From Solibacillus merdavium (GTDB taxonomy: Bacteria; Bacillota; Bacilli; Bacillales_A; Planococcaceae), in the NCBI RefSeq assembly GCF_014836935.1, contig NZ_JACSPW010000001.1, positions 124,001 to 188,000 on the forward strand: a DNA stretch of 64,000 nt, read 5' to 3'. The position numbers and the translations under genes are program-made. Below the pieces are notes generated by a model that saw nothing but the letters and a program-made list of their open reading frames with translations, was not told the origin of the DNA and did no database searches. Positions within the stretch are counted from its first letter, which is position 1; each line of letters begins with the position of its first letter. Below, in pieces: positions 12,218-28,386 of this stretch.

Positions 12218-12265
12218 GACTATATGCAAATCGAGAAGGTTCGATTTGCATAAGTCTTTTTTTAT
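12218..12265 (+). terminator. Rho-independent terminator after thermonuclease gene
   Basis: GACTATATGCAAATCGA pairs with TCGATTTGCATAAGTC around a six-base loop with one bulge, followed by a TTTTTTT run. It isolates the downstream riboswitch operon from the thermonuclease gene. Confidence 0.9.
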
Positions 12266-12314: not shown

Positions 12315-12343
12315 TTGAAGATTTGGAAGTGATATGGTACACT
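12315..12343 (+). promoter_or_regulatory. Sigma-A promoter of the cobalamin operon
   Basis: TTGAAG (12315-12320) and TACACT (12338-12343) with an exact 17-base spacer. Transcription would begin about 12350, just ahead of the riboswitch aptamer at 12371. Confidence 0.7.
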
Positions 12344-12370
12344 CATTGTTATGTGAATAAGGATTGCAGA

Positions 12371-12541
12371 ATAAAGGTGCTCAATTTGAGCTTAAAAGGG
12401 AATTCGGTGAAAAACCGAAGCTGTTTCCGCAACTGTAAATGTAGACGACCACAGAGTATACCACTGTCGAATGAAGAAAAATGCTTCTAGTAGATGGGAA
12501 GGTTCTGAATGGGATACATGAGCCAGGAGACCTACCTTTAT
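12371..12541 (+). promoter_or_regulatory. Cobalamin (B12) riboswitch aptamer
   Basis: Canonical AdoCbl-class elements occur in order: closing stem ATAAAGGT (12371-12378) pairing with ACCTTTAT (12534-12541); AAAAGGGAA followed by CGGTGAAAAACCG; the GCTGTTTCCGCAACTGTAA core; a CCACTG arm; ATGGGAAGG; and the B12 box AGCCAGGAGACCTACC (12521-12536). It lies in the leader of the 1968-residue surface protein gene and upstream of an intrinsic terminator, so the expected action is transcription termination when cobalamin binds. Confidence 0.96.
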
Positions 12542-12550
12542 TTTATCGTA

Positions 12551-12681
12551 TTAACTCTCTTCGGAAGCTAGGAGAACTTACGGCAAATAGACGGGCAGGT
12601 ATATTTTATACCCTTTTTTTCTGTTGTTTACCGGTGTTTCTCTAAATGGAGAAGCACCGTTTTTTTGTTGTAGAGAGTTAA
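12551..12681 (+). promoter_or_regulatory. Expression platform enclosed by a 10-bp complementary pair
   Basis: TTAACTCTCT (12551-12560) is perfectly complementary to AGAGAGTTAA (12672-12681). The enclosed region holds a second B12-box-like string (AGCTAGGAGAACTTACGG, 12566-12583), a weak GGTATA/TATACC hairpin with a T-run (12598-12619), and the strong terminator at 12632. What the long-range stem does is unknown; it could act as an antiterminator or hold the terminator together. Confidence 0.5.
12632..12667 (+). terminator. Riboswitch-controlled intrinsic terminator
   Basis: CGGTGTTTCTC pairs with GAGAAGCACCG (one G-T wobble) around a six-base loop, followed directly by TTTTTTT. Located 91 bases after the aptamer and 57 before the first start codon, the usual place for a riboswitch terminator. 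Confidence 0.88.
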
Positions 12682-12723
12682 GAGCAAAAACATTCACTAT
12701 AACAAAATAGGAGGTTTTTGTAA

Positions 12724-15700
12724 GTGAAAATTTATAAAAAGTGGTTAAGTATTGCGATTATATTCATATTGTCATTTTCGCTATTATCACCCGCTGCAAT
12801 CGTGAAAGGGCAAGGATTTGAAGCAGAAGAATCAAATGCCACTTCTAGTACATACAACCATGATGAACAGAGTCTTCACCCTAATGATGAGACGTCAAAG
12901 AATGCACCTTCATTACCGACAACGAGTGACAGTGCGCAAATCAATTCCTCAAACTTATCTGAAGTTCTCCCTTCAGGCTATGTGACGGTATCAGTAGAAA
13001 AATTTACACTTGGACAAGGATATGCAATTGACCCCATCCAAGTTCCTTTTTATGAAGGGGAAATGGCAGGACAAGTAGTTGCCAGAGTACTTGGAAGTGG
13101 TAACTATAATAATGGTATGGATGAAGAAAATATCTCATACCTTGCGAATATTAAAGATGCAGAAAGCACTGTTAATATTCCGACATATATTCAGAAGGAA
13201 ATTTTGAAAAGCGGTTCTACAATAGGAGCGAGAACTAACAGCGACTGGCTTGGACAGTTTGACTATACCGATATGTCAGGCTGGATGTATACTGCCAATC
13301 ATAAATTGCCGGATGTAGGTATGAGTGAATATGAAGTTACAGACGGAAGTGTAATTCGGTTACAGTTTACAGTATACGGTTACGGTGGTGACCTTGGTTT
13401 TAGTTTTGAATTACCCTATATCGAAGTCGCTAACAAAGACAGGCTTACAGCAAAGGTTGCCGAAATTAATAGTAATCCGGATAAAGGAGTAATTTTAGCT
13501 AATCAAAGTGTAAAATCTGCCTACGACGCTGCTTATGAACAGTTAAAAGATATGGAAAGCAGTCAAACAAATATTGATGACGCTTTAAAACAATTAGAAG
13601 CTGCTCTTGAGGGGCAAGTAGATGTAATAATAACTGATAAAACTGTATTACAAACAGCAGTTAATACTGCTGAAGTAAATAAAGATTCAGTAAAAATAAG
13701 CTCTAATGGCAAAGATGTGGAACCTATAGAGTATTGGGTTACTCAAGCCGAGTTTGACGCTTATACAAATATCATTGTTTCTGCACAACAGCTTATTGCA
13801 GATCAAGCAGTAATTCAAGATACTATCGATGCTAAAGTTTTGGCACTAAATCAAGCAACAGATTCATTTAATGCAGTAAAAAAAGAAGGATTAAAAAATG
13901 CTGTACCTACAGTAAATGAAGTGAAATTCACTATTGCACCAAAGACCGTTACATTCAAGCTTTTTGATGCTAACAATCAGGAAGTAAATATCGGAACTGG
14001 TGTTGTAGGTACGTATAAAGTATATACAGCAAATTTACAAGCCGGTGATTACCGTTATGAAGGTTTTGACAGCAGCGAGAAAAGTGTTGGTGGTGGTAAA
14101 CTAACTGTTACAACTGAACCAAAGCAGGAATATCAGTTCCGTCAGCTTAATTTTAAGGCAACCAACACAAACTGGAAAGTCGGAAATGACTATACCATTA
14201 AAGTAGGCCTGGATAGCTACGACGACACGTCATTAAAGTTTGGTGATGAACTGTCAAGTGGTCACATACCTGTATTAGGTCTCACAGGAAAAACATACTT
14301 TTACTCTTTTGAACCTATTTCAACACACAAGGAATACACAGCTCTAAAAAATAGTATTACAGTAACAATTGCAGGATCGGCACAATCAATTAGCGGGTCC
14401 ATTCCTTTTTCAGGGAATGTAACATTCACAGTACCTCTGGAAGCGGAATTGTTTTTAGGACGAAAAATTAAACATTTCATTTCATTTGAAGAAATTAAGC
14501 CTGAAGGTGAAGCGACTGTAAATAGTAATGGAACAAAAACATTTTCGTACAAGCTTGCTAACAATGGGCAATATAACTACCGTGTTAGCCAAGAAGGAAA
14601 ACTTACAAATACAGGTATATTTACAGCCAACGCACAAAATGCTGCCTTGGAAGTCACACAAAAGCAGCTGGATATTTTATCACCGAGAGCAGTCTTAAAT
14701 AAAGGTACACATTTCGAGGGGAATATTTATCTAAATATCAACGAACAAAACCATTTAAAATTAAGTCAAGGCGATAACTTTAAATTGCTTCCTCTTCGTA
14801 GTTGGCAAGCTCTAATAGATGGCATTACGAACTACTTCTTCGAGCCTGATTTTAACTATGAAATCATTACAGGTAATGACGTAGTTGAAATTGAGCCTGG
14901 AAAACCAGGGAGCTATGCCATAGTAAAAGCAATAAAAAATGGGACAGCTATTGTAAAAGTTACGTACGATGCTCTGAAGGTTAATGGTTCAACAGATATT
15001 AAAGCGGCAGATGATGCGTATAGCGCCATTTGGCCAGAAAATGTCGGTGTATTCGTAGTAACTGTTGGTCAAGGTAAAACAGGTATTTCAACAGGAATTG
15101 AAAGTAATAAAGAACGTAATCAAAAGGCAAATGAAAAAAAGGTAAATAACCTTCAAAACGGCATTTATGATGCAGATATTGATAGTGTTTACTATGTTAA
15201 AGGTGAGCCGGGAGCGTTTTTCAAATTTACGCCAACTGCCAATAGTACAGTAAGTATTTTACGCCCTGAAATTAATCATGCAGCAGGTACTGTTTCTTAT
15301 GGCAATGCTGAATTTTCAACAGAAAATATAACGTTAAACGAAGATGGTTCTTATACGGTATTACTAACTGAAGGACGTAATATAGTTAAAGTTGAGAAGG
15401 ACGGTAAGGCTGAATATCATGTAATGACTGCGCGTCCGCTTGACATAACAATTGAGAATGTTACAAATCCTAATGGGGAAATTGCAGCAGGAGATAAAGT
15501 GAAAGTTACATTTAAAGGTATTTCTTTCCCGGCCAACAAATTATCAGGAATATATAATTTCCGTGGTCAATTAAAATACCTAGGTGGAAATAATCATACA
15601 TCCATTGTTGGTCAAGCAGTTCAATATAATATGACAACAATTGGAAACAGTATAACTTTTACAATTCCAGAAGACTATGAGGGCGAATACAGTTTGCATG

Positions 15701-18630
15701 ATGGTCATATCCAATTAAGCTTTTTCGGAAGTCCTATCGGTGACCATCGAAATATTAACCCAACTGTAGGGGCAAATCCTAACTTTGCTGCTTCCGAAAT
15801 AGAGGCATACTACGGCATTTTCCCGAAAATTACAATTATCGATGGTCCTGTTGATAAAACCAAACTACAGACATCGATTATTGAGGCTGGAGTAAATAAA
15901 GATTCCGTAAAAATAAGCAATGATGGAAAAGATATAGATCCAACAGAATATTGGGTAACGCAAGCGGAAGTAGATACTTATACAAATATCATTGTCTCAG
16001 CACAACAACTACTTGCAGATGAGAATAAAACACAAGTTGCAATCGATGCAAAAGTATTAGCATTAAACCAATCCACGGAAACATTTAATCAAGCGAAAAA
16101 ATTAGGTGCAAAATCTAAAGTAATTATACCAACTCAACAGGCTTACAATACTGTTGGAAAATACATGATAGATAAATTACCGAATCCTAAATTCGGCAGT
16201 GAATGGTGGATTATTACTTTAGCTCGTGGTGGATATGAAGTTCCTGAATCCTATTACAACACTTATTACAATAATGTAGTGGACTATGTCATTTCAAAAA
16301 ATGGCGACTTAGATCAAAGGAAATACACAGAGTATTCACGTCTAATCATTGCTCTTACCGCTATTGGAAAAGATCCTTCAAATGTCGGCGGCTATAATTT
16401 AATTGAAAAACTGTCAGATTACGATAAAGTCGTTTGGCAAGGTGTAAATGGTGCCTATTTTGCATTAATTGCGCTGGATACTTGGGGATTCGACTTACCA
16501 AATTCAGCAACTACTACACGTGAGAAACTGATTGATTTTATTTTAGATAAACAACTAGCAGACAAAGGCTGGGCTCTATCAGGAACTAAGGCAGATCCTG
16601 ATATGACAGGGATGGCTATCCAATCGTTAGCGCCATATTACAACAGTAACCCACAAGTAAAAGAATCTGTTGATCATGCATTAGCTACATTATCTGCTAT
16701 TCAAGAGGAAAATGGCGGCTATAAATCATGGAATACAGAAAATGCTGAAAGTGCAGCGCAAGTTATCACAGCACTAGCTAGCTTAGGAATAGATGCAAAT
16801 CAAGACCCTCGTTTTAATAAGGTCATCTCGAATATTATGACCTACTACAGTAAAGAAGATGGTGGCTTTAAACATGTTCTGACTGAAACGAAAGCGAATG
16901 GTATGGCAACTGAACAGGTAGGATATACATTAGCTGCCTATCATCGCTTGTTAAACGGGCAAACAGCACTTTATGATATGACCGATACTAAGCAAAATAA
17001 TCCATCAAATCCAGGAAACGGTGGAAACAATCCATCAAATCCGGGAGATGATGAAAATAATCCTTCTAAACCTGGTGACAGTGAAAATGGAAGTAAACCT
17101 GGCGCTGGAGGAGGAAATAACAGTCCAGGTGGTAATCTCGCATACGGCAAAACAACATTCCTAATTAAAATTTCCTCATCGGAAATTCCATTAAGAGCAA
17201 CAACTGTTGATTTATTCCCAGGGGAAACAGTAGTTGACGTGTTAAAGCGTGTAACAGCAGAGAACGGTATTTCGTTAAGTTACCGTGAAACGCAATATGG
17301 TACTTATATTGAAGGTATAGCAGGTCTTTATGAGTTTGATCGTGGTCCATTAAGTGGATGGATGTATCGTGTAAATGGAAGCTTCCCATCATACTCTGCG
17401 GGAATTTATACGTTATCTCCCGGTGATACTGTTGAATGGCTGTACACACTGGATCTAGGAAAAGATATTGGCGGCTATGTGGATGGAATCGAAAATGGTT
17501 CAGCACCTGGTGCCACTCCTGGTGGAGGAGCAGAGTGTAAGGACGAAACAAAGGATTGTAAAGAAAAAAATAAATGTACAGATGAAGATAAACAATGTAC
17601 AGAAGAACCAAGCAAGGATGAAGACAGTGAGGAAGAAAGCAAAGAGAATACAAAAGCTGAAATAACAGTTGAAGATGGCAGTGACAAAGCATTTATTACA
17701 GCTGAGAATATTCAGAAATACCTTGAAAATGATATGCAAACACTTGTCATTAAAATTAATGGCAAAAATTTAGAACTCCCAACGTCTTCATTAAAAAGCA
17801 TTATTCTTGCAGAAGATGAAAAATTAGTTGCCTCTATTGTTTCAAGTACTGAGAGCAAAGAATTTACGGTGAATTTTGGAGTTGAGACTTCACAAGGACA
17901 AATAAAGCCTATTTCTCTGGGCAAAGAATATGTGAAAGTAACGCTACCAGCTGATGAGGTGAAACCAAATACTGTTGTTCTACAGCTTATTGATGGCGAG
18001 TATAAGCCTGTTCCACATAAAGTGATTAACGGCGAAATTGTATTATTTACAAAAATAAGCGGTACATTTGTCATTATTGAAAAGCAAGTTACTTTTAAAG
18101 ATATAGAAAAGCTTGCAAATAAAGATGAAATAGAGTTTTTAGCCAGCCGTCTTATAATTCAAGGTAAAACTCCGGAGACGTTTGAACCAAACAAGCCAAT
18201 AACACGTGCACAATTTGCCGCATTAGTTAGCCGGGCGCTGGGATTACAAACATCAGGAGAAAATCCGTTTAATGATACATCGGGCAAATGGTATGAGAAA
18301 GATATCCAAGCACTGTTTGAGGCCGGCATTACGAAAGGTACAACTGCTTCCACATTTAATCCGGAAGCGCCAATTACACGTCAGCAGGCAGCCGCATTTA
18401 CAGGACGTATCCTTGAATATCTAAATGTAATGGCTAAGGAAAATGGTGACATTCATTTCAAAGATGCTAATAGAATCAGCGCTGAATATTTACGTTATAT
18501 TGAGCTATTAAGCAGCCTCGATATTATGACAGGTAAAGAAGACGGAACATTTGATCCAAGAGAAAGTTTAACGAGATCGCAAACAGCAAAAATCCTGAAA
18601 CGTGCGTTAACTATAGCAGACATGATGTAA
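12724..18630 (+). CDS. Giant SLH-anchored transcobalamin/intrinsic-factor-like surface protein
   Basis: 1968 residues; GTG start nine bases after AGGAGG. Order seen: signal peptide (1-30); DUF4430/transcobalamin C-terminal-like domain 1 (about 83-230, with MSGWMYTANHK and YGYGGDLG); helical FIVAR-like segments (about 236-390); Ig-like beta region (about 395-1040); a second copy of the FIVAR-like unit (1044-1128); an alpha-barrel domain like prenyltransferase-fold B12 carriers (1140-1420, Gly/Trp-rich helical repeats such as WQGVNGAYFALIALDTW); Gly/Pro/Asn linker; DUF4430 domain 2 (1474-1584, LSGWMYRVNG, LYTLDLGKDIGG); a four-Cys acidic stretch (1605-1625); beta domain; three SLH repeats (1789-1968). 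Barrel plus DUF4430 is the architecture of transcobalamin and intrinsic factor. With the riboswitch upstream and ECF genes downstream, a cobalamin-capture role is inferred; binding is not shown. Confidence 0.88.
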   Translation: MKIYKKWLSIAIIFILSFSLLSPAAIVKGQGFEAEESNATSSTYNHDEQSLHPNDETSKNAPSLPTTSDSAQINSSNLSEVLPSGYVTVSVEKFTLGQGYAIDPIQVPFYEGEMAGQVVARVLGSGNYNNGMDEENISYLANIKDAESTVNIPTYIQKEILKSGSTIGARTNSDWLGQFDYTDMSGWMYTANHKLPDVGMSEYEVTDGSVIRLQFTVYGYGGDLGFSFELPYIEVANKDRLTAKVAEINSNPDKGVILANQSVKSAYDAAYEQLKDMESSQTNIDDALKQLEAALEGQVDVIITDKTVLQTAVNTAEVNKDSVKISSNGKDVEPIEYWVTQAEFDAYTNIIVSAQQLIADQAVIQDTIDAKVLALNQATDSFNAVKKEGLKNAVPTVNEVKFTIAPKTVTFKLFDANNQEVNIGTGVVGTYKVYTANLQAGDYRYEGFDSSEKSVGGGKLTVTTEPKQEYQFRQLNFKATNTNWKVGNDYTIKVGLDSYDDTSLKFGDELSSGHIPVLGLTGKTYFYSFEPISTHKEYTALKNSITVTIAGSAQSISGSIPFSGNVTFTVPLEAELFLGRKIKHFISFEEIKPEGEATVNSNGTKTFSYKLANNGQYNYRVSQEGKLTNTGIFTANAQNAALEVTQKQLDILSPRAVLNKGTHFEGNIYLNINEQNHLKLSQGDNFKLLPLRSWQALIDGITNYFFEPDFNYEIITGNDVVEIEPGKPGSYAIVKAIKNGTAIVKVTYDALKVNGSTDIKAADDAYSAIWPENVGVFVVTVGQGKTGISTGIESNKERNQKANEKKVNNLQNGIYDADIDSVYYVKGEPGAFFKFTPTANSTVSILRPEINHAAGTVSYGNAEFSTENITLNEDGSYTVLLTEGRNIVKVEKDGKAEYHVMTARPLDITIENVTNPNGEIAAGDKVKVTFKGISFPANKLSGIYNFRGQLKYLGGNNHTSIVGQAVQYNMTTIGNSITFTIPEDYEGEYSLHDGHIQLSFFGSPIGDHRNINPTVGANPNFAASEIEAYYGIFPKITIIDGPVDKTKLQTSIIEAGVNKDSVKISNDGKDIDPTEYWVTQAEVDTYTNIIVSAQQLLADENKTQVAIDAKVLALNQSTETFNQAKKLGAKSKVIIPTQQAYNTVGKYMIDKLPNPKFGSEWWIITLARGGYEVPESYYNTYYNNVVDYVISKNGDLDQRKYTEYSRLIIALTAIGKDPSNVGGYNLIEKLSDYDKVVWQGVNGAYFALIALDTWGFDLPNSATTTREKLIDFILDKQLADKGWALSGTKADPDMTGMAIQSLAPYYNSNPQVKESVDHALATLSAIQEENGGYKSWNTENAESAAQVITALASLGIDANQDPRFNKVISNIMTYYSKEDGGFKHVLTETKANGMATEQVGYTLAAYHRLLNGQTALYDMTDTKQNNPSNPGNGGNNPSNPGDDENNPSKPGDSENGSKPGAGGGNNSPGGNLAYGKTTFLIKISSSEIPLRATTVDLFPGETVVDVLKRVTAENGISLSYRETQYGTYIEGIAGLYEFDRGPLSGWMYRVNGSFPSYSAGIYTLSPGDTVEWLYTLDLGKDIGGYVDGIENGSAPGATPGGGAECKDETKDCKEKNKCTDEDKQCTEEPSKDEDSEEESKENTKAEITVEDGSDKAFITAENIQKYLENDMQTLVIKINGKNLELPTSSLKSIILAEDEKLVASIVSSTESKEFTVNFGVETSQGQIKPISLGKEYVKVTLPADEVKPNTVVLQLIDGEYKPVPHKVINGEIVLFTKISGTFVIIEKQVTFKDIEKLANKDEIEFLASRLIIQGKTPETFEPNKPITRAQFAALVSRALGLQTSGENPFNDTSGKWYEKDIQALFEAGITKGTTASTFNPEAPITRQQAAAFTGRILEYLNVMAKENGDIHFKDANRISAEYLRYIELLSSLDIMTGKEDGTFDPRESLTRSQTAKILKRALTIADMM
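13636..13890 (+). repeat. Internal repeat copy 1 (FIVAR-like unit) in the giant surface protein
   Basis: Encodes about 85 residues (305-389) that recur at 15853-16107. Shared strings include NKDSVKIS, EYWVTQAE, YTNIIVSAQQL and IDAKVLALNQ; overall identity is roughly 70 percent by eye. Helical surface-spacer unit of the FIVAR/sugar-binding-like type. Confidence 0.85.
15853..16107 (+). repeat. Internal repeat copy 2 (FIVAR-like unit) in the giant surface protein
   Basis: Second copy (residues 1044-1128) of the 85-residue unit at 13636-13890. It sits immediately before the alpha-barrel domain, whereas copy 1 follows the first DUF4430 domain, so each copy is next to a carrier-type domain. Confidence 0.85.
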
Positions 18631-18636
18631 TTTCAA

Positions 18637-18674
18637 ACTAACCCAATAGCACTTTGCTTTTGGGTTAGTATCTT
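18637..18674 (+). terminator. Intercistronic hairpin (possible partial terminator)
   Basis: ACTAACCCAA and AGC pair with GCT and TTGGGTTAGT, giving a stem of about 13 bp with one internal mismatch, followed by ATCTTTT. The weak T-tract suggests partial termination or an mRNA-processing/stability element between the giant protein and the rest of the operon. No separate riboswitch follows it. Confidence 0.6.
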
Positions 18675-18698
18675 TTAACTAGAATTGGGGATATCTAA

Positions 18699-20240
18699 AT
18701 GAAGCAAAAATTAACGATGTTTATTATGCTACTACTTGCTGTTTTATTAATAGTTACACCCGTTTCTGCACAAAGTATTTCAACAATAGATGCTTATAAA
18801 ACGACGGGTGATTATATTGTAAAACAAGCACCAAGTCCTAAGTTCGGTGATGAATGGTTTATTATTGCACTTGCTCGCGGTGAATATAATGTTCCAAAAA
18901 ATTATTATGAAACGTATTATGAAAACGTTCTAAAACATATTCAGTCCATGAAAGGTGAATTACACAATCGTAAATATACGGAGTATTCACGTCTAATAAT
19001 TGCTCTTACTTCAATTGGAAAAGATCCAACTAATGTAGGAGGATATAATTTAGTTGAAAAATTGGGGGATTTCGATAAAGTCATTTGGCAAGGTCCGAAT
19101 GGTGCCTATTTTGCATTAATTGCGTTAGACACTTGGAACTTTGAACTTCCAAAAAGTGCTACGACTACAAGAGAAAAATTAGTAGATCATATTTTATCAA
19201 AGCAATTAGCTGATGGTGGATGGGACTTATCCGGAATGAAAGCAGATCCTGATATGACTGCAATGGCCGTGCAGGCACTGTCTACCTATAAAGATCGACC
19301 AAATGTAGAAAAATCAATAAATCGAGCGTTAGATACTTTACAAAAAATACAGGACGTTAATGGTGGTTATAAAAGCTGGGGAACATCCAACTCGGAAAGT
19401 GTAGCTCAAGTTATTACTGCATTATCCAGTATAGATATAGATTCAAAAGAGGATGCACGATTCTCTAAAGCATTCAATAGCTTTTTTACTTTCTACAATG
19501 CTAAAGATGGTGGGTTCAAGCATGTATTGACTGAAACAGCTTCTAACGGTATGGCAACAGAGCAGGCTTCCTATACACTGGCAGCCTATAATCGACTTTT
19601 GGCAGGAAAAACAAAATTATATGACATGTCGGATACAAAGAAAAATAAGCCTTCAACACCTGTTGAGCAAGAGAAACCAATTATAGCTCCTACTAAATTA
19701 AGCTTTAAAGATATTCAATCACATTGGGCAAAGGGTGATATTGAAGCTGCGGTAGCTAAAGGCTTATTAAAAGGATATGAGGATAATACGTTTAAGCCAA
19801 ATAATCATTTAACACGTGTCCAAGCTGTATCCATTTTAGTTCGTTCATTAAACTTGACGAGTACACAACAAGCGCCATTTACAGATATAGACCGTTATAG
19901 TGAAATTACGAAAAAAGAAATCGCAGCAGCGTATGAGGCAAAACTATTAACCGTCAATTCAGGTGAATTTTTACCATCGGCACCTATAACACGTGAGGAA
20001 TTATCGATTATGCTTTATCGTGCCTATACGTCTATAAATGGTCAAGCTTATATACCGAGCAAGGTAGTACCATTAAACGATATTAACAAGCTTTCGAATG
20101 AGTCAAAAAATGCGATTGCTTTATTATATGATTTTAATATTGCACAAGGTTCTAATGGAGCGTTTCAACCATTCAATTCATTAACAAGAGCGCATGCCGC
20201 AAAAATGTTTATTAACTTTTTAAAGGTAGTGGATAAATAA
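18699..20240 (+). CDS. SLH-anchored barrel protein, transcobalamin/intrinsic-factor alpha-domain-like
   Basis: 513 residues: signal peptide (1-25, ending VSAQS); an alpha-barrel domain (about 30-312) closely similar to residues 1140-1420 of the giant protein (shared KYTEYSRLIIALT, VGGYNL, NGAYFALIALDTW, DGGFKHVLTET); and three SLH repeats (about 334-513, SFKDIQSHWAKGDIEAAVAKG and following). It lacks a DUF4430 domain. The next gene, overlapping by one base (TAATG), encodes a lipoprotein with only the DUF4430 domain. I infer that the two together form a split two-domain corrinoid carrier, the barrel held at the S-layer and the other half at the membrane. Annotation pipelines would likely call it a prenyltransferase-repeat protein; an enzyme role is unlikely given the SLH anchor. 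Confidence 0.88.
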   Translation: MKQKLTMFIMLLLAVLLIVTPVSAQSISTIDAYKTTGDYIVKQAPSPKFGDEWFIIALARGEYNVPKNYYETYYENVLKHIQSMKGELHNRKYTEYSRLIIALTSIGKDPTNVGGYNLVEKLGDFDKVIWQGPNGAYFALIALDTWNFELPKSATTTREKLVDHILSKQLADGGWDLSGMKADPDMTAMAVQALSTYKDRPNVEKSINRALDTLQKIQDVNGGYKSWGTSNSESVAQVITALSSIDIDSKEDARFSKAFNSFFTFYNAKDGGFKHVLTETASNGMATEQASYTLAAYNRLLAGKTKLYDMSDTKKNKPSTPVEQEKPIIAPTKLSFKDIQSHWAKGDIEAAVAKGLLKGYEDNTFKPNNHLTRVQAVSILVRSLNLTSTQQAPFTDIDRYSEITKKEIAAAYEAKLLTVNSGEFLPSAPITREELSIMLYRAYTSINGQAYIPSKVVPLNDINKLSNESKNAIALLYDFNIAQGSNGAFQPFNSLTRAHAAKMFINFLKVVDK

Positions 20241-21136
20241 TGAAAAGAACAATTCGCTTACTAACAGTTGTTATCTTCGTTTTTTTATTAGCGGCGTGTA
20301 ATATTCAATCAGTCGAACAATATGAACAAATGAAAGAACAAGAGCGAAGTTTAGATTCAAAGTCTAAAATAGGCCAAGAACAAACAGTAAATCAGGAAAT
20401 AAAAGATTCAGAAAAAAATCATGAAAATATAAAAGAAGATAAATCAGAATCAGATAATGAAGAAGCTAGCCCTCCAAAAAAAGAGGAAACTTCAGAAATA
20501 AATAATAAGAAACAACCAATAGAAAACCAGGAAAAGAAAGTGGAAGCTAAAGAAGAAGCAAAGGACTCGATAAAGTCAGAGCGGCAGCCTCACAAAGAAT
20601 TACCGCCAAAAGAGGAGACTTCCAATAAAAAAACTGCTACTGATAATCAGAAAGTAGAAAAGCCGAAGCAGGTTCCTGTCGAAAAAAGTGAACTTCTAGC
20701 TGAAAAAAAGAAAACTGTTACAATTGCAATTCGCGTAGACACTTTGCTTAAAAATTGGGATAAGTTAGATCCAGCACTACAAAGTGATAAATATGTACCT
20801 AAAAACGGAGTCATATTAAAGCCGACAACGTACGAGCTATTATCTGAAAAAGATACCGTTTGGGACGTTCTACAACGTGCAACGAAAGAACATAAAATTC
20901 AACTTGAATATCAAGGGGCAAACGAAAATATTTATAACAGTGTTTATATAGAGGGAATTAATCATCTATATGAATTTAGCGCGGGTGAATTAAGTGGATG
21001 GATGTATAAAGTGAACGGTGTGTATCCTAATTATGGCTGTAGTCAATATGTTTTGAAAGATGGCGATGTAATAGAATGGCATTACACAGTTGATTTAGGA
21101 CGCGATTTAGGACATGTCTGGAAAAGCAGCGAATGA
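20240..21136 (+). CDS. DUF4430 (transcobalamin C-terminal-like) lipoprotein
   Basis: 298 residues. Lipoprotein signal with FLLAAC lipobox (Cys 20); a long Lys/Glu-rich, probably extended stalk (about 25-155); and a DUF4430 domain (about 158-295) with LSGWMYKVNGVYPNYG and WHYTVDLGRDLG near the end, matching domain 2 of the giant protein. In transcobalamin and intrinsic factor the equivalent beta domain covers the upper face of cobalamin (family knowledge). Overlaps the upstream gene by one base and EcfT by four (ATGA), so it is made with both. The stalk would let it reach from the membrane towards the barrel protein. Likely the membrane-proximal receptor half that passes ligand to the ECF transporter (inference). 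Confidence 0.88.
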   Translation: MKRTIRLLTVVIFVFLLAACNIQSVEQYEQMKEQERSLDSKSKIGQEQTVNQEIKDSEKNHENIKEDKSESDNEEASPPKKEETSEINNKKQPIENQEKKVEAKEEAKDSIKSERQPHKELPPKEETSNKKTATDNQKVEKPKQVPVEKSELLAEKKKTVTIAIRVDTLLKNWDKLDPALQSDKYVPKNGVILKPTTYELLSEKDTVWDVLQRATKEHKIQLEYQGANENIYNSVYIEGINHLYEFSAGELSGWMYKVNGVYPNYGCSQYVLKDGDVIEWHYTVDLGRDLGHVWKSSE

Positions 21137-22014
21137 AATCATTTGAAACTTTTCATCCACTGGTTATTTTCGCTTTTTTTGCTGCAGCTATTGGACTATC
21201 AATGTTTTTTATGCACCCGGCTTATTTAGTGATTACTATTTTCCTAGCAGTAAGCCTGAATATCGCCTTACGTAGAGGGCAGTTTTTTAAGGATTGGAAG
21301 CTATATGTTCCTTTATTTTTCCTTATGGCTATTATAAATCCATTAATTAGCCATAATGGGAAACTAGTATTGTTTTATATAAATTACAATGCCATTACAG
21401 TAGAGGCAATTGTTTACGGATTAAGCATTGCCACAATGATTGTTTCAATTATCCTATGGTTTAGCTGCTATAACGAAACGATAACTACAGATAAGTTTAT
21501 TTACTTATTCGGTAAAATATCGCCGGTATTCTCTTTAACGTTATCGATTAGCTTAAGGTTAGTGCCACGTTTTCAACAGCAATTACACAAAATATCAAAT
21601 GCTCAAAAGGTAATTGGCATGGATTATCGAAGTGGATCCTTATTACACCGTATTAAATGTACTCTTCGAATTATATCCATTCTAATTACTTGGGCATTGG
21701 ACAATGCAATAGATACGGCAGATTCCATGAAGGCGAGAGGTTATGGTATAGGGAAGCGGACATCCTTCTCTTTATTTATTTTTGAACGTCGCGACGGAAT
21801 AGTTTTGCTTTTCATTATGTTCCTTTTAATGGTGAATATTTGGGCAAGTATAATAGGTACAACAACTTTTTATTTTTATCCGACTTTTTCAATCATTCAA
21901 TGGGATTTAAAAAATATCCTATTTTATTGCAGTTATTTTCTCCTGCTTGCTATCCCAATAATAATCGAGATAAAGGGGGGAATCGAATGGAAATTGTTAA
22001 AGTCGAAAATGTAA
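21133..22014 (+). CDS. ECF transporter transmembrane coupling subunit EcfT (CbrV-like)
   Basis: 293 residues, about six membrane segments. The cytoplasmic coupling motif ADSMKARGYG (ARG type, about residues 197-206) is present, as in EcfT/CbiQ proteins that connect the ATPases to the S component. Its start overlaps the lipoprotein stop by four bases and its 3' end overlaps the ATPase gene by 28 bases. A dedicated EcfT beside its own S component indicates a group I ECF system. Function in cobalamin import is inferred from the riboswitch. Confidence 0.9.
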   Translation: MKSFETFHPLVIFAFFAAAIGLSMFFMHPAYLVITIFLAVSLNIALRRGQFFKDWKLYVPLFFLMAIINPLISHNGKLVLFYINYNAITVEAIVYGLSIATMIVSIILWFSCYNETITTDKFIYLFGKISPVFSLTLSISLRLVPRFQQQLHKISNAQKVIGMDYRSGSLLHRIKCTLRIISILITWALDNAIDTADSMKARGYGIGKRTSFSLFIFERRDGIVLLFIMFLLMVNIWASIIGTTTFYFYPTFSIIQWDLKNILFYCSYFLLLAIPIIIEIKGGIEWKLLKSKM

Positions 22015-23633
22015 GCTTTACATATCCAAATGAGTCAAAACCCATTTTGAAAAACATTAATTTAACTGTTGAACAAGGTGAATTCATTATTCTAATTGGT
22101 CAATCTGGTTGTGGAAAAAGTACATTACTACGACATTTTAAAAGTGAACTTTCTCCTCATGGTAAGAAAGCAGGTACATTTTTTTATGATGGTAAAAGGT
22201 TGGATGAAGTTATGCCTGAAAAGGCCGCATCGGAAATTGGCTATGTCTTTCAAAACCCGGACAATCAAATTGTAACGGATAAGGTTTGGCATGAATTAGC
22301 ATTCGGTTTAGAAAGCTTGGGAGTAGATAAACATACGATGCGTAGGAGAGTAGCGGAAATGGCTAATTTCTTTGGTATTCAGAAGTGGTTTCACCAAAAA
22401 ACTTCAGAGTTATCTGGAGGACAGAAACAGCTTTTAAACTTAGCCTCAATTATGGTGATGCAACCAAAACTACTATTGTTAGACGAACCAACATCTCAGC
22501 TTGATCCGATTGCTGCTATGGAGTTTATTCAAACGTTAAACCGTTTAAATAAAGAATTAGGCATAACTATAATATTGGTTGAGCATCGTCTTGAGGAGGT
22601 CCTTCCTATTGCTGACCGTGTTTTAATAATGGAAAAGGGGGACTTATTATTTGATGGCGACCCCCGGGAAATTATCAATACATTACCCCCAAAACATGAA
22701 TTGATTACAGCATTGCCAACAGCTACAAAAATGTACCACCTATTAGATGGTGAAGGACCAGTACCTCTGACGATTCGAGAAGGACGAAAATGGCTAGCAA
22801 AGAAAAAGGTCGATTTACATACTGGGAAACAGCTTCCTGTGGCCAGTGGCATTTCTAATACAATAGTTTTGGAAGCAAAAGATGTAGCTTTCCGTTATGA
22901 AAAAAATGCTACTGATATTATCCAGCACTTAAATTTACAAGTGAAAAAAGGAGAATTTCTAACTATTATCGGAGGTAATGGAACAGGGAAATCAACGGTC
23001 TTGTCATTATTGGCTGGCTTACAAAAACCATATCGAGGGAAGATTCTCCTGCACGATAAATTATTGAAAACTTATCGTAATAAAGAGCTTTATCAAAAAT
23101 TTATAACATTGTTACCACAGGAACCTAAAACATTGTTTGTTCAAAAAACGGTAAAGCAAGAGTTGGAAGATACAGCAAAATATCATAATATTTTGGATGA
23201 TAAAGTTGAGGAAATGATAATGCAATTTCAGCTAATTCATTTACTGCAGCGGCACCCCTATGATTTAAGTGGTGGTGAGCAGCAGAAATTAGCCCTTGCA
23301 AAGCTATTATTAATAGAGCCGGAAATATTACTGCTAGATGAGCCGACAAAAGGGCTGGATGCTTATGCAAAAGAAGAATTGGCTACTATTTTGAAAAAAC
23401 TACAAGTAAATGGACTGACAATTGTTATGGTGACACATGATATTGAATTTTCTGCTCAGCATAGTAGTCGCTGTGCTTTATTATTTGATGGAAATATCGT
23501 TTCAGAGGCTGATCCGCGTACTTTTTATAGTGGAAATAACTTTTATACTACTGCTGCACACCGTATTGCTAGAGGAATAATGAATGAAGTAATTGTTTGT
23601 GACGATTTGGTGATATTATGCAAAAAAGATTAA
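21987..23633 (+). CDS. Fused double ATPase of ECF transporter (CbrU-like)
   Basis: 548 residues with two complete ABC ATPase halves: Walker A GQSGCGKST with LSGGQKQ and LLLLDEPTSQLD in the first; GGNGTGKST with LSGGEQQ and ILLLDEPTKGLD in the second. This replaces the separate EcfA and EcfA' of general ECF modules. ATG 21987 is chosen for the AAAGGGGGG site 6-14 bases upstream; upstream in-frame codons lie inside ecfT. It overlaps EcfT by 28 bases and the S component by 16, so the three are coupled. Energises substrate uptake from the cytoplasmic side. Confidence 0.94.
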   Translation: MEIVKVENVSFTYPNESKPILKNINLTVEQGEFIILIGQSGCGKSTLLRHFKSELSPHGKKAGTFFYDGKRLDEVMPEKAASEIGYVFQNPDNQIVTDKVWHELAFGLESLGVDKHTMRRRVAEMANFFGIQKWFHQKTSELSGGQKQLLNLASIMVMQPKLLLLDEPTSQLDPIAAMEFIQTLNRLNKELGITIILVEHRLEEVLPIADRVLIMEKGDLLFDGDPREIINTLPPKHELITALPTATKMYHLLDGEGPVPLTIREGRKWLAKKKVDLHTGKQLPVASGISNTIVLEAKDVAFRYEKNATDIIQHLNLQVKKGEFLTIIGGNGTGKSTVLSLLAGLQKPYRGKILLHDKLLKTYRNKELYQKFITLLPQEPKTLFVQKTVKQELEDTAKYHNILDDKVEEMIMQFQLIHLLQRHPYDLSGGEQQKLALAKLLLIEPEILLLDEPTKGLDAYAKEELATILKKLQVNGLTIVMVTHDIEFSAQHSSRCALLFDGNIVSEADPRTFYSGNNFYTTAAHRIARGIMNEVIVCDDLVILCKKD

Positions 23634-24313
23634 GTCTCATAATTTCTTTAGTTATCATTTTTATATTCATCCCTCTCACTTTATACGCCGGCATTGTACT
23701 GTTTAATGATAGAAAATATTATTTTATATCAATCATGATAATAATTTTAGCATCGATTCCATTTTTCCTTTCGTTTGAGAGAAGGAAGCCACAGCCTAGA
23801 GAGATATTGATAATAGCAGTTATGTCAGCCATTTCTGTCACAGGGCGTGCATTATTTGTTATTACACCGGGTTTTAAGCCTGTTGCAGCAATTGCAGCAA
23901 TAACAGGTTTTTCACTTGGAGCTGAGGCAGGTTTTTTAACAGGTGCTATATCTGCTCTTGTATCCAATATGTTCTTTGGTCAAGGACCTTGGACTCCTTT
24001 TCAAATGTTTATGTGGGGAATGATTGGTTTTATTGGCGGACTATTAGGAAGGACAGGAATTATGCATAAAAAAATACCACTTATATTATTTGGGATTTTT
24101 GCGGGCATCCTATTTTCGTTTGGCATGGATATTTGGGGGACGATGTCTTTATATGGAGTGTTTAGCATGGAAGCTTATATAGTTGCTCTGACGTCAGCAG
24201 TTCCATTTACGATTGTTTATGCAGTGTCCAACGTAATTTTTTTATTAATACTTGCAAGGCCAATTCGTGAAAAGTTGGAGCGGATTAATAATAAATACGG
24301 GACATTTCAGTAA
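23618..24313 (+). CDS. cbrT: ECF transporter S component, probable cobalamin-specific (CbrT-like)
   Basis: 231 residues, about six membrane segments. Characteristic S-component sequence is visible: PGFKPVAAIAAITGFSLGAEAGFLTGAISALVSN followed by FGQGPWTPFQMF in the middle. It is the substrate-binding membrane protein of the ECF complex. Position as last gene of a B12-riboswitch operon with transcobalamin-like proteins supports cobalamin or another corrinoid as ligand; the family includes cobalamin (CbrT) and other vitamin transporters, so specificity is an inference. Overlaps the ATPase gene by 16 bases; a terminator follows. Confidence 0.82.
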   Translation: MQKRLSLIISLVIIFIFIPLTLYAGIVLFNDRKYYFISIMIIILASIPFFLSFERRKPQPREILIIAVMSAISVTGRALFVITPGFKPVAAIAAITGFSLGAEAGFLTGAISALVSNMFFGQGPWTPFQMFMWGMIGFIGGLLGRTGIMHKKIPLILFGIFAGILFSFGMDIWGTMSLYGVFSMEAYIVALTSAVPFTIVYAVSNVIFLLILARPIREKLERINNKYGTFQ

Positions 24314-24371
24314 AAGGTATAGGGCAAGTGAAATTCGGTATAAGGAAAAAAGTTCAATTTCTTCTCTGTTA

Positions 24372-24419
24372 GACTGTAGACGAACTCGTATAAATTCGAG
24401 TTTGCTTACAGTCTTTTTT
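24372..24419 (+). terminator. Terminator of the cobalamin operon
   Basis: GACTGTAG-C-AACTCG pairs with CGAGTT-GC-TACAGTC with small internal mismatches around an AT-rich loop, followed by TTTTTT. Ends the riboswitch operon and separates it from the heme operon. Confidence 0.88.
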
Positions 24420-24615: not shown

Positions 24616-24656
24616 TTAGTTAATTACATATTATGAAGAAAAGGAGGAGAATTCGT

Positions 24657-25436
24657 ATGAAAAAAAACTTCTTCATGATTTTTGCGGCGCTTTTTTTGGT
24701 AGCGTTTACTTTGCCAAACACTTCATTTGCTGCAATTGCCGATGGGACTTACGAAGTGAACTATCAAGTAAATAAACCTGGCAGCAATTCGGCTTCCATG
24801 GCTAATGATTATTTTTTAAAGCCTGCCAAGTTAATTGTAAATAACGGTAAGATGACAATGCAGCTTACGATAAAAAACAGTAGCTGGGTTACAGAGTTTA
24901 AACCTCCGGGCGGGGCAAAAGTAATTAGTACAAATGAGTCTGCAGGTCAACGTACTGTTCAGTTTCCAGTGTCGAATGCAAATTTAGTAACAATCGCCAT
25001 GAAAATAGATATTGATGATATTGATTACCACCATGCCTATAGTGTGGATTTTGTATTCAACAGTTCAGGTTTACCAGAAGCAAAAGTGGACGAGCCTAAA
25101 GCGCAGGTAAAGCCAGTAAAAGAGGAAACAAATCAAGCAACATCTGCTAAGGAGTCAACAACACAATCGTCAGGAAGTAATACTTCTTCAAATAAAACAG
25201 CACCATCAACTGAACCACAAAAAACAGAATCATCAACAGAGCAAGCAACTACAGAAGCAAATACAGATGATTCTACAAAGACAGATGAAGAAAATGCATC
25301 TGAAATGGCGCAAGCTGAAAATTCAGAGGTAGTAGAAAATCCGGAGACGAGCGATGAATTACCGCTTGTGGCGATGATGTTATTCATCGTAGCGGCGATT
25401 GTATTTATTCGCACAAAACAAACAAAAACAAGATAG
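24657..25436 (+). CDS. isdC: IsdC-like NEAT-domain heme protein with sortase B signal
   Basis: 259 residues. ATG 24657 follows AGGAGGAG; the in-frame ATG 24633 precedes that site. Signal peptide (1-26, SFAA), one NEAT domain (about 28-145) with the heme-contact helix SMANDYF and a YHHAY (YxxxY) motif in the last strand, a Thr/Ser/Glu-rich linker, then NPETS (228-232), a hydrophobic helix and a charged tail. NPETS fits the NPxT[N/S/G] sorting signals used by sortase B, whose gene is 4.7 kb downstream in the same operon. IsdC-type proteins sit within the wall and pass heme to the IsdE lipoprotein. Confidence 0.9.
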   Translation: MKKNFFMIFAALFLVAFTLPNTSFAAIADGTYEVNYQVNKPGSNSASMANDYFLKPAKLIVNNGKMTMQLTIKNSSWVTEFKPPGGAKVISTNESAGQRTVQFPVSNANLVTIAMKIDIDDIDYHHAYSVDFVFNSSGLPEAKVDEPKAQVKPVKEETNQATSAKESTTQSSGSNTSSNKTAPSTEPQKTESSTEQATTEANTDDSTKTDEENASEMAQAENSEVVENPETSDELPLVAMMLFIVAAIVFIRTKQTKTR

Positions 25437-25455
25437 AAAATTGGAGGAAATGAAA

Positions 25456-27264
25456 ATGGTTAAAAAATCAAAAGCAACAAAAGCGGTCTTGGCATCGCTA
25501 TTAGCAACATCTGCAATTGTACCAGCAATGGCAGTATCTGCTGAAGTAGGTGGGGAAACGACTCGTACGGGTGAAGCAACAACTACTGCAGCGGCAAAGA
25601 CGATTGATTTTAAAGTAGATGCCCCTGAATCTTTACAGCGCTTTATTCCTACTACAGGTAAATTAGTTGAGCGAAATGGTCAGCAATTTATTAATCTGGA
25701 ATTATCTGACGCAGTATTAGGTATGGTAAATAGCGTAACAGTAGCGGGTCAACCAGCAATGGCTGAATTTAACGGAAAAAAACATATTAATATTCCAGTA
25801 ACAGCTGATTATGCGCCAGTGGAAGTAACTTTAAATATGACAATTACTTTCGTTGGTAAAGATCCGGTAGATTATAAAGTTACATTAACTCCAGATGCAA
25901 AATCAATAAAAGAAGCAACAGAAACAACTAAACCCGTTGAAGAAGCAAAAGAAGAAAAAATCTTCAAAGTAGGTAAAACATTCGATTCAGTAGCAGACGG
26001 TACTTATGATATTAAGTGGGATGCTTATAAAGATAAAGTAGGAAACTACAAAGCAATTACAAGCCATTTTTCACCTGATGCAAAATTAATCGTAAAAGAT
26101 GGCAAATATTCAGTACAGCTAACTATTACTGAAGATTCAAAAGCAATGGTACCGGATGTAACAATTGCGGGTAAAAATGTTGTTGCAAAAGATGGCATCG
26201 TTACTTTAGAAATTCCATCAATCAGTGATTTACATGAAGCTTCAGTACACGTTGTTGTACCTGCAATGAATATGGATAAACCTTATCCATTTGGCTTCGC
26301 TATTGAAACGGCTAACTTAGAATTACCAAAAGCAGAAGCTGCACCAGCACCAGCTCCGGTTGAAGCAACAAAAATGCCTGTTACTGTATTTAAAGATGGA
26401 ACAAAAGAACAATCAATTATGCAAGGCACATATTTAGCTAATGAAGTAATGGTTACTTCTACTGAGGGCGGATACGATGTTGATGTAACATTCCCACAAG
26501 GTCAATGGTTAAATGACTTCAAAGTTGAAGGTGCGACAGTAGCATTGAAATCAGAAGAAACTGTAGGGAAAAATACAGTTCAAATTTACACGATCTCATT
26601 AAAAGATATTAATGAGATTTATAATGCAACTGTTGATTTAACAGTTGATGCTGCTGGTGTAAAATATGATTCAGTTCATAAAGTACAATTACAATTCGGT
26701 GAAAAGAAACCAGTTCCTGTAGCAGCTCCATTTAAAGATATTGCTAACAACGGAAACAAAGATGCAATCGTTAATCTATTCAACAAAGGTATTTTCATCG
26801 CTGCAGACAACTTTAATCCAGGCAATAACGTTACACGTGCTCAGTTCGCTTTAATGTTAAACCGTGCATTAAAATTAGATGTACCAGCAAAAGCGGCGTT
26901 CACAGATATCGTGAAATATGGTGACGAAGCGAAAAAAGCGATTAACGCTTTAAATGGTTATGGCATCATCAATGGTAAAACAGCTACTACATTCGCACCT
27001 GCACAAGATGTGACTCGTAAACAAGCTGCATTAATGATCTACCGTTTATTAGAGAAGAATGGTTATACTGCAACTGGCGATACAGCTAAATTCTCTGATA
27101 TGCCAAAAGAAGTGGAAGCTTCAAAAGCAATTTCTGAATTAAATAAATTAGGTATTATTTCTGGTTTTGAAGGTAAGTTTAATCCAGAAAACAAATTAAC
27201 TCGTTCACAAATGGCTAAAATTTTAAACAATACTTTAACAGTTGTTGAAGGTTTAAAAAAATAA
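25456..27264 (+). CDS. NEAT-repeat surface protein with SLH anchor
   Basis: 602 residues. ATG 25456 lies eight bases after GGAGG; the ATG at 25450 is too close. Signal peptide (1-29, AVSAE); an N-terminal beta domain (about 43-150), then two NEAT-like domains (about 178-300, ADGTYDIKWDAYKD...; and about 308-420, MQGTYLANEVMV...), and three SLH repeats (425-602). The NEAT-like domains lack the SxxxxY helix and have YPFGF or YDSVH where heme-binding NEATs have YxxxY, so heme contact is doubtful and hemoprotein binding or scaffolding is possible. SLH anchoring replaces the sortase A-type anchor of IsdA/B/H. Confidence 0.82.
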   Translation: MVKKSKATKAVLASLLATSAIVPAMAVSAEVGGETTRTGEATTTAAAKTIDFKVDAPESLQRFIPTTGKLVERNGQQFINLELSDAVLGMVNSVTVAGQPAMAEFNGKKHINIPVTADYAPVEVTLNMTITFVGKDPVDYKVTLTPDAKSIKEATETTKPVEEAKEEKIFKVGKTFDSVADGTYDIKWDAYKDKVGNYKAITSHFSPDAKLIVKDGKYSVQLTITEDSKAMVPDVTIAGKNVVAKDGIVTLEIPSISDLHEASVHVVVPAMNMDKPYPFGFAIETANLELPKAEAAPAPAPVEATKMPVTVFKDGTKEQSIMQGTYLANEVMVTSTEGGYDVDVTFPQGQWLNDFKVEGATVALKSEETVGKNTVQIYTISLKDINEIYNATVDLTVDAAGVKYDSVHKVQLQFGEKKPVPVAAPFKDIANNGNKDAIVNLFNKGIFIAADNFNPGNNVTRAQFALMLNRALKLDVPAKAAFTDIVKYGDEAKKAINALNGYGIINGKTATTFAPAQDVTRKQAALMIYRLLEKNGYTATGDTAKFSDMPKEVEASKAISELNKLGIISGFEGKFNPENKLTRSQMAKILNNTLTVVEGLKK

Positions 27265-27333
27265 TTAAATGAACTGCAGACGGTTTGAGTAACGGATTTT
27301 AAAAAAGCCATCAGCAAATAGTTATAGTAGGTA

Positions 27334-27368
27334 GGGTTGTGTTAAAAGTGTTACTTTTAGCGCAGCCC
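27334..27368 (+). repeat. Inverted-repeat hairpin, copy 1 of a family also at 51221
   Basis: GGGTTGTGTTAAAAG pairs with CTTTTAGCGCAGCCC (several G-T wobbles) with a TGTTA loop. The left arm resembles GGGCTGTGTTAAAAG of the hairpin at 51221-51267. Located after the NEAT-SLH gene; it may act as a partial terminator, with the ATTTTTA tail being weak. Confidence 0.6.
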
Positions 27369-27412
27369 CAATCCTATTTTTACGAAAAATATTTATAAGA
27401 TGACGCTTAAAT

Positions 27413-27455
27413 TGAAGTAAAATTCCATCTATGTTGGAGATGAAATTTTACTTCA
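27413..27455 (+). other. Long hairpin in the leader of the IsdE-like gene
   Basis: TGAAGTAAAATTCCATCT pairs with AGATGAAATTTTACTTCA (one mismatch) around a seven-base loop, just before the AGGAGG ribosome site of the next gene. No T-run follows, so a mRNA stability or processing element that changes the ratio of surface protein to transporter is more likely than a terminator. Confidence 0.6.
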
Positions 27456-27480
27456 GTTTAAACACTAGGAGGAAAAATAA

Positions 27481-28386
27481 ATGAAAAAGTGGCTTATCGG
27501 ACTCGCACTAAGTGGTGCTGTACTTGCGGGTTGCGGAGATGGAGAGAAACAAACAGAAAACGCCGAAACAGTGGCAGAAAATACGGCTTCAGGCCAAGCG
27601 TCTGCTATAGAAGAAGAGCATCGAATTATTGCGGGAACAGTGGTAATCGCGCAAATTCTGGATCGATTAAATCTTAATGCTGTAGCGATTCCCGATACGG
27701 TTAAGGAATTGCCCTCGCGTTTTGATGGACTGCCTGACATTGGAAATGCGATGGACCCTGACGCAGAAATTATTAAGTCACTTAATCCTACTGAGGTATT
27801 GTCAGTTTCAACATTGGAATATGATTTAAAGGATAAATTTGAACAATTAAAAATTCCTGTAGATTTTGTGGATCTAACAAGTATTGAAGCAATGATGGAT
27901 GAGATAACGGTACTTGGAGAGCGCTACAATCGTGTAGAAGAAGCGAAACTATTAAATGATGAGTTACAGACGGAAATTGATGCAGTAAAAGTAGCTGCAA
28001 GTGATAAAGAAAAACCACGTGTCTTGATTTTACTAGGTGTACCAGGCAGTTATTTAGTAGCAACAGAAAATTCGTACGCGGGCGACTTAGTTCGTTTAGC
28101 CGGCGGGGAAAATGTAATGGCCGGTCAGGATGCAGAATATTTGCCTTCTAACACTGAATATTTATATTCTTCAAATCCTGATATAATTTTACGTTTAGCT
28201 CACGGCATGCCAGATGAAGTAATAAAAATGTTTGATGAAGAATTTGTGAAAAATGATGTTTGGAAACATTTTAATGCAGTGAAAAATGGACAAGTATTTG
28301 ATCTAGAAGAAGAGTTATTCGGTACGACAGCAGCATTGAATGTACCAGATGCACTTCATCAATTGGAGAAAATTTTCTATCAATAA
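27481..28386 (+). CDS. isdE: Heme ABC transporter substrate-binding lipoprotein (IsdE-like)
   Basis: 301 residues; lipoprotein signal with LAGC lipobox (Cys 18), then a bilobed TroA/periplasmic-binding fold typical of class III binding proteins (GLPDIGNAMDPDAEIIKSLNPTEVL near 80-105; ALNVPDALHQLEKIFY at the end). IsdE takes heme from NEAT proteins and gives it to the permease. AGGAGG ribosome site eight bases upstream. Followed by the matching permease and ATPase. Heme rather than siderophore specificity rests on the NEAT/SrtB context. Confidence 0.9.
   Translation: MKKWLIGLALSGAVLAGCGDGEKQTENAETVAENTASGQASAIEEEHRIIAGTVVIAQILDRLNLNAVAIPDTVKELPSRFDGLPDIGNAMDPDAEIIKSLNPTEVLSVSTLEYDLKDKFEQLKIPVDFVDLTSIEAMMDEITVLGERYNRVEEAKLLNDELQTEIDAVKVAASDKEKPRVLILLGVPGSYLVATENSYAGDLVRLAGGENVMAGQDAEYLPSNTEYLYSSNPDIILRLAHGMPDEVIKMFDEEFVKNDVWKHFNAVKNGQVFDLEEELFGTTAALNVPDALHQLEKIFYQ

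Follow-up and report, generated by a model that had tools for sequence, protein, structure and literature searches.

How Gram-positive bacteria capture cobalamin (vitamin B12) outside the membrane has been little studied relative to the Gram-negative BtuB/BtuG systems, and the question is raised by a locus of Solibacillus merdavium (contig NZ_JACSPW010000001.1) at positions 12315 to 24313 of the 64,000-nucleotide stretch analysed here, which is referred to as the window. Six co-directional genes on the + strand stand behind a cobalamin riboswitch and encode a giant protein with SLH domains, an SLH protein built on an alpha/alpha barrel, a DUF4430 lipoprotein, and the EcfT, double ATPase and EcfS components of an energy-coupling factor (ECF) transporter. 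Do the surface proteins catch cobalamin for the importer encoded with them? They probably do: the operon is read here with good confidence as a dedicated uptake system for B12 and related corrinoids, in which transcobalamin-like proteins anchored at the surface and membrane would capture the ligand and an ECF-CbrT importer would take it over.

The B12-riboswitch operon itself is confirmed as a real observation, and comprises the following features.

12223..12252, + strand: terminator-like hairpin 3' of the upstream gene, operon boundary
12315..12343, + strand: possible weak promoter TTGAAG-N17-TACACT, 8/12 consensus bases, read by eye
12358..12553, + strand: cobalamin riboswitch aptamer of the adenosylcobalamin (AdoCbl) type, RF00174, 106.2 bits (cut-off 31.5 bits), E=1.4e-25, model positions 1-189
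12632..12659, + strand: terminator-like hairpin of the expression platform, between aptamer and first gene, 12-bp stem, T7 tail
12724..18630, + strand: giant exported protein, 1968 residues, with signal peptide, barrel, two DUF4430 and three C-terminal SLH domains
16129..17007, + strand: alpha/alpha barrel of the giant protein, residues 1136-1428
17218..17457, + strand: DUF4430 of the giant protein, transcobalamin beta-domain-like, residues 1499-1578
18699..20240, + strand: exported barrel protein, 513 residues, with three SLH domains
18780..19655, + strand: barrel of the 513-residue protein, residues 28-319
20240..21136, + strand: DUF4430 lipoprotein, 298 residues, lipobox LAAC
20846..21097, + strand: DUF4430 of the lipoprotein, residues 203-286
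21133..22014, + strand: EcfT transmembrane coupling protein, Pfam CbiQ 3.3e-11
21987..23633, + strand: fused EcfA-EcfA' double ATPase, 548 residues, ATG start at 21987
23618..24313, + strand: EcfS substrate-binding component, assigned to the CbrT family
24371..24414, + strand: strong operon terminator 3' of ecfS, -22.6 kcal/mol, z=-6.6

The aptamer is the sole Rfam match across the window and bears out the canonical cobalamin riboswitch that an earlier inspection of the letters alone (the sequence-only reading) had placed at the operon head. The hairpin that follows it is positioned as in a transcription-attenuating riboswitch, and OFF switching is predicted: when AdoCbl is scarce the riboswitch would let transcription through its terminator and the operon would be expressed. 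Successive genes are spaced by +68, -1, -4, -28 and -16 nt, and EcfT, the fused double ATPase and the S component lie in overlapping frames as had been claimed (overlaps of 4, 28 and 16 nt). The claimed promoter fared less well, as the weak match is present but was not listed by the promoter scan.

The ligand of the importer is indicated by its S component, which by sequence comparison belongs specifically to the CbrT (cobalamin) family. Against chain A of 6FNP, phmmer gives 8.2e-10 and a profile gives 8.3e-26 over residues 58-231, with the next PDB match at 0.0016. The structure 6FNP is ECF-CbrT of Lactobacillus delbrueckii, which imports cobalamin and cobinamide and for which hemin does not compete (PMC5997447). 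As the genome holds a separate housekeeping EcfA1A2 ATPase pair, the ECF set of the operon is dedicated, and the proposal of a dedicated CbrT-type importer with EcfT and fused ATPases is supported. In eight genomes of the phylum (L119, L120, L123, L124, L127, L130, L131, L132) a single chain of 831-940 residues carries the two ECF ATPases together with a CbrT-like S component (e.g., L131:14835-17435, + strand); such tethering is relevant to the debate over whether S components must quit the ECF module during transport.

The surface proteins connect the locus with the animal B12 carriers, whose C-terminal domain has been named DUF4430 (PMC4350170). Residues 1131-1586 of the giant protein were modelled with AlphaFold from a nine-row alignment (mean predicted local distance difference test score, pLDDT, 73), the barrel being confident and the DUF4430 domain moderately confident. 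In a Foldseek search of 350,542 PDB chains the first 15 ranks are all occupied by transcobalamin, haptocorrin and intrinsic factor (E 4e-9 to 1e-6, probability 1.00), followed by terpene cyclases at E 4e-5, and the alignment to the carriers covers both domains and keeps their order from barrel to DUF4430. The predicted-fold comparison with transcobalamin and intrinsic factor proposed in the sequence-only reading therefore came out in its favour.

Several observations weigh on the other side. The Foldseek TM-scores are only 0.39-0.44 (by query length) and the root-mean-square deviation is about 23 A over the whole chain; the latter is large because the model does not predict relative domain placement, and each domain fits singly. 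In sequence, the nearest PDB matches of the barrel are squalene-hopene cyclases (1.5e-18). The Pfam family of eukaryotic cobalamin-binding proteins, PF01122, matches 7 of 40 barrel relatives with a best E of 8e-4, one relative scoring 13.1 bits against a cut-off of 25 bits, and does not match the barrel of the window at E<=1. Alignment of the barrel to a 118-residue transcobalamin segment by hhalign reaches 15% probability, a DUF4430 profile finds the transcobalamin-2 beta-domain at E=0.74, and a model of DUF4430 alone is poor (pLDDT 58), its transcobalamin matches being non-significant. Nor is the operon the sole B12 route of the genome, since a riboswitch-controlled BtuFCD is also encoded (L104). 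Evidence of homology with transcobalamin sought by profiles and hhalign is thus weak or negative; as profile evidence alone falls short of proving homology, the proteins are described here as built like the animal carriers and not as members of their family.

Among 111 barrels, polar residues are most strongly conserved at the N-ends of successive inner helices: D185 (111/111), Q289 (107/111), T187 (106/111), N134 (92/111) and Q237 (90/111). In human transcobalamin, Asp176, Asn224 and Gln273, which are taken here to be cobalamin contacts, were located in 2BB5. D185, Q237 and Q289 recur at a spacing similar to that of the human residues, with a shared N-x5-Q; hhalign gave no reliable residue alignment, and the resemblance is suggestive only.

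The modules are distributed unevenly over the three exported proteins. The giant protein, which starts at GTG with AGGAGG upstream, has Pfam matches to three SLH and two DUF4430 domains (PF14478, 95.4 and 67.8 bits; cut-off 23.8 bits) and a Prenyltrans match below cut-off, whereas the 513-residue protein matches Prenyltrans, SQHop_cyclase_C and three SLH domains. The description of all three as assembled from DUF4430 and barrel consequently applies in full to the giant protein; the second combines barrel and SLH, and the lipoprotein has DUF4430 only. Similarly, of the claimed display on the S-layer, attachment to the cell wall is shown by SLH but an S-layer is not necessarily involved.

Is this arrangement peculiar to one genome? 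Of 250 genomes of the family, 56 have a barrel homologue, as do 76 of 399 genomes of the phylum. The barrel served to select the loci, and independent evidence therefore comes only from the remaining parts. Among 55 family loci with EcfT, DUF4430 is found in 54, EcfS in 49 and the riboswitch in 51; among 30 such loci of the phylum the numbers are 30, 29 and 22, and four more riboswitches were recovered by Rfam or in extended DNA (L124, L127, L130, and L159 upstream of L118). Retention of the riboswitch in homologous operons, on which the B12 assignment had been made to depend, is thus 51/55 in the family and 26/30 in the phylum. At a density of about six riboswitches in 3.8 Mb, chance would place one on the same strand within 250 nt upstream of about 2 in 10,000 genes; one is present for 60 of the 67 homologous barrel/DUF4430 gene groups in the fetched loci, which are related by descent. 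The association of riboswitch and operon is far beyond chance. Flanking genes vary among genomes while operon and riboswitch persist.

The smallest form of the operon consists of riboswitch, barrel, DUF4430 lipoprotein, EcfT, EcfAA' and EcfS (e.g., L073, L079, L099). In short forms the secreted barrel and the DUF4430 lipoprotein are separate proteins; with the transcobalamin-like halves so divided, the device would often be a split carrier. Elsewhere a chain may contain as many as three barrels, fused to DUF4430 and SLH, and L137 encodes a single 523-residue lipoprotein in which the barrel precedes DUF4430, as in animal transcobalamin, though this DUF4430 falls below the Pfam cut-off.

Other variants were also encountered. 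Loci L067, L068, L093 and L098 have a riboswitch followed by barrel surface proteins, with or without DUF4430, and no ECF genes in the fetched stretch; these orphan capture proteins perhaps share an importer encoded elsewhere. A larger variant (L076, L077, L080, L081, L088, L092, L101) comprises several barrel/DUF4430 proteins and giant surface proteins, one of the latter carrying Listeria-Bacteroides repeats, mostly with EcfT and ATPase and with no EcfS recognised nearby in the fetched stretch. L042 (the Bacillus ndiopicus contig, L010) has two tandem riboswitch-headed giant-protein sets ahead of a single ECF transporter, with a third B12 riboswitch following ecfS, and at L078:5278-6811 divergent and tandem B12 riboswitches lie within 1.6 kb around surface-protein genes.

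A mechanism may be outlined from these elements. The two cell-wall proteins held by SLH (the giant barrel-DUF4430 protein and the barrel protein) and the DUF4430 membrane lipoprotein would capture cobalamin on the outer side of the membrane. The mechanism would most likely be that of transcobalamin, with the corrinoid sandwiched by the mouth of the alpha/alpha barrel on one side and the DUF4430 beta-domain on the other; the two halves could belong to a single chain or be supplied by the barrel protein and the lipoprotein separately. The lipoprotein would tether the loaded complex to the membrane, and the ligand would pass to the CbrT-type S component, with EcfT and the fused EcfAA' driving ATP-dependent import. 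Animal carriers hold cobalamin between alpha and beta domains and need proteolysis to release it; their isolated domains each bind cobalamin and pair only in its presence (PMC11107200), which makes a split carrier plausible. Such a carrier could form around cobalamin and separate at CbrT with no need of proteolysis. A bolder version, that a widespread split transcobalamin of Bacillota (barrel plus DUF4430 lipoprotein clamp) releases its ligand to CbrT in this way and that the animal carriers descend from such proteins, is put forward tentatively and is more doubtful than the uptake system itself.

The alternative that survives best, with a small but appreciable chance, is that ECF-CbrT does the B12 work alone and the barrel and DUF4430 proteins do not bind the vitamin, serving as scaffolds or as receptors for a B12-loaded partner, for instance a binding protein of another microbe or of a host. 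CbrT of L. delbrueckii works without such a partner (PMC5997447), the giant protein includes long stretches without a known function, and the large surface proteins differ widely in length and domain order as the transporter stays constant. However, small barrel and DUF4430 proteins are present in nearly every operon, even those lacking a giant protein, the proteins matched in fold bind B12 directly, and the polar positions at the helix N-ends rank with the best conserved of the barrel. Capture by the surface proteins is preferred.

It is very unlikely that the barrel is instead an extracellular squalene-hopene or terpene cyclase, or a related alpha/alpha-toroid enzyme, acting on a corrinoid or a cell-wall substrate. 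This reading draws on the cyclase sequence matches given above and on the invariant D185, which aligns with the middle Asp of the DVDD motif of cyclases. The DxDD motif is nevertheless not kept, since 85 of 111 barrels have Met or Ile at its last position and Asp is not among the common residues there; B12 carriers rank above cyclases in Foldseek, and repetition of the domain, up to threefold in a chain, with fusion to DUF4430 and SLH is as expected of binders.

The least probable alternative, that the importer carries heme or another vitamin such as riboflavin and the riboswitch has a different purpose, could draw on the isd locus beginning at 24633, the Pfam label of the S component (ECF-ribofla_trS) and the existence of ECF heme importers (PMC7299338), but is rejected because the terminator at 24371-24414 parts the operon from that unrelated locus, the operon and its riboswitch persist beside different neighbours in other genomes, and the match of EcfS to CbrT, which hemin does not inhibit, exceeds the next PDB match by more than 20 orders of magnitude. 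The isd locus (window 24633-28386) is a separate transcription unit for heme uptake, with an IsdC-like NEAT protein, a NEAT and SLH protein and a binding lipoprotein.

The preferred role, cobalamin uptake, accords with the physiology of the genome. MetH is encoded, CbiC was looked for in the genome and not found, and the remaining B12 riboswitches precede metE, a ribonucleotide reductase operon, btuFCD together with an adenosyltransferase gene, and an operon for cobinamide salvage; the organism is therefore a B12 user that probably cannot make the vitamin de novo. The salvage operon (L105, C11:505001-525000) encodes a BtuF-like protein, an adenosyltransferase and CobU/CobS-like enzymes, and, at L105:9738-10232, an S component that is small and the second of ECF type.

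CbrT, the riboswitch and the DUF4430/transcobalamin domain are already known; what is new is their assembly as a Gram-positive surface system for B12 capture. No prior description of the combination of barrel/DUF4430, CbrT and riboswitch was found among 5.4 million open-access papers, most subscription papers lying outside the search. A lipoprotein partner may have been noticed earlier, as SEED/RAST annotation has a role named "additional lipoprotein component of predicted cobalamin ECF transporter". If the proposal holds, about one fifth of sampled Bacillota genomes (the 76/399 with barrel matches) carry transcobalamin-like proteins, most inspected loci adjoining a CbrT importer; extracellular binding proteins would feed an ECF transporter, a feature absent from the standard ECF scheme; the animal carriers would gain possible bacterial relatives; and DUF4430 and the unnamed barrel family would become directly testable B12 binders.

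Four known systems may be compared. Transcobalamin, intrinsic factor and haptocorrin share with the giant protein the order of an alpha/alpha barrel and then a DUF4430-type beta-domain on one chain, at about 13% identity. The animal proteins are disulfide-bonded, whereas no cysteines occur in the modelled region of the giant protein (residues 1131-1586, read from the alignment); the bacterial barrel scores below the PF01122 cut-off where a score is shown, and the bacterial proteins are anchored to cell wall or lipid, with domains repeated or split across two proteins. ECF-CbrT of L. delbrueckii has the same S-component family, EcfT and two ATPases; the operon differs in its fused ATPases, in a complete ECF set that is dedicated and lies alongside the S-component gene, and in the additional cell-wall proteins and lipoprotein. 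CbrT of L. delbrueckii is not known to have an extracellular partner. The BtuFCD importer of the same genome also combines a B12 riboswitch with a lipoprotein and an ABC importer, but its binding protein is of the Peripla_BP_2 type and its permease of type II ABC, without homology to barrel or DUF4430. Finally, in Bacteroidetes the surface B12 binders BtuG, BtuH and BtuJ feed an importer together with BtuB (PMC6143338, PMC8941943, PMC13398666). The suggested counterpart relationship stands as a likeness of role, surface-exposed capture (predicted here) supplying an importer, and does not extend to the proteins, which are unrelated in fold: domains of a BtuG-type lipoprotein or a TonB-dependent receptor are absent among the operon proteins, and the outer-membrane TonB route of Bacteroidetes is replaced here by Gram-positive cell-wall anchoring and an ECF transporter.

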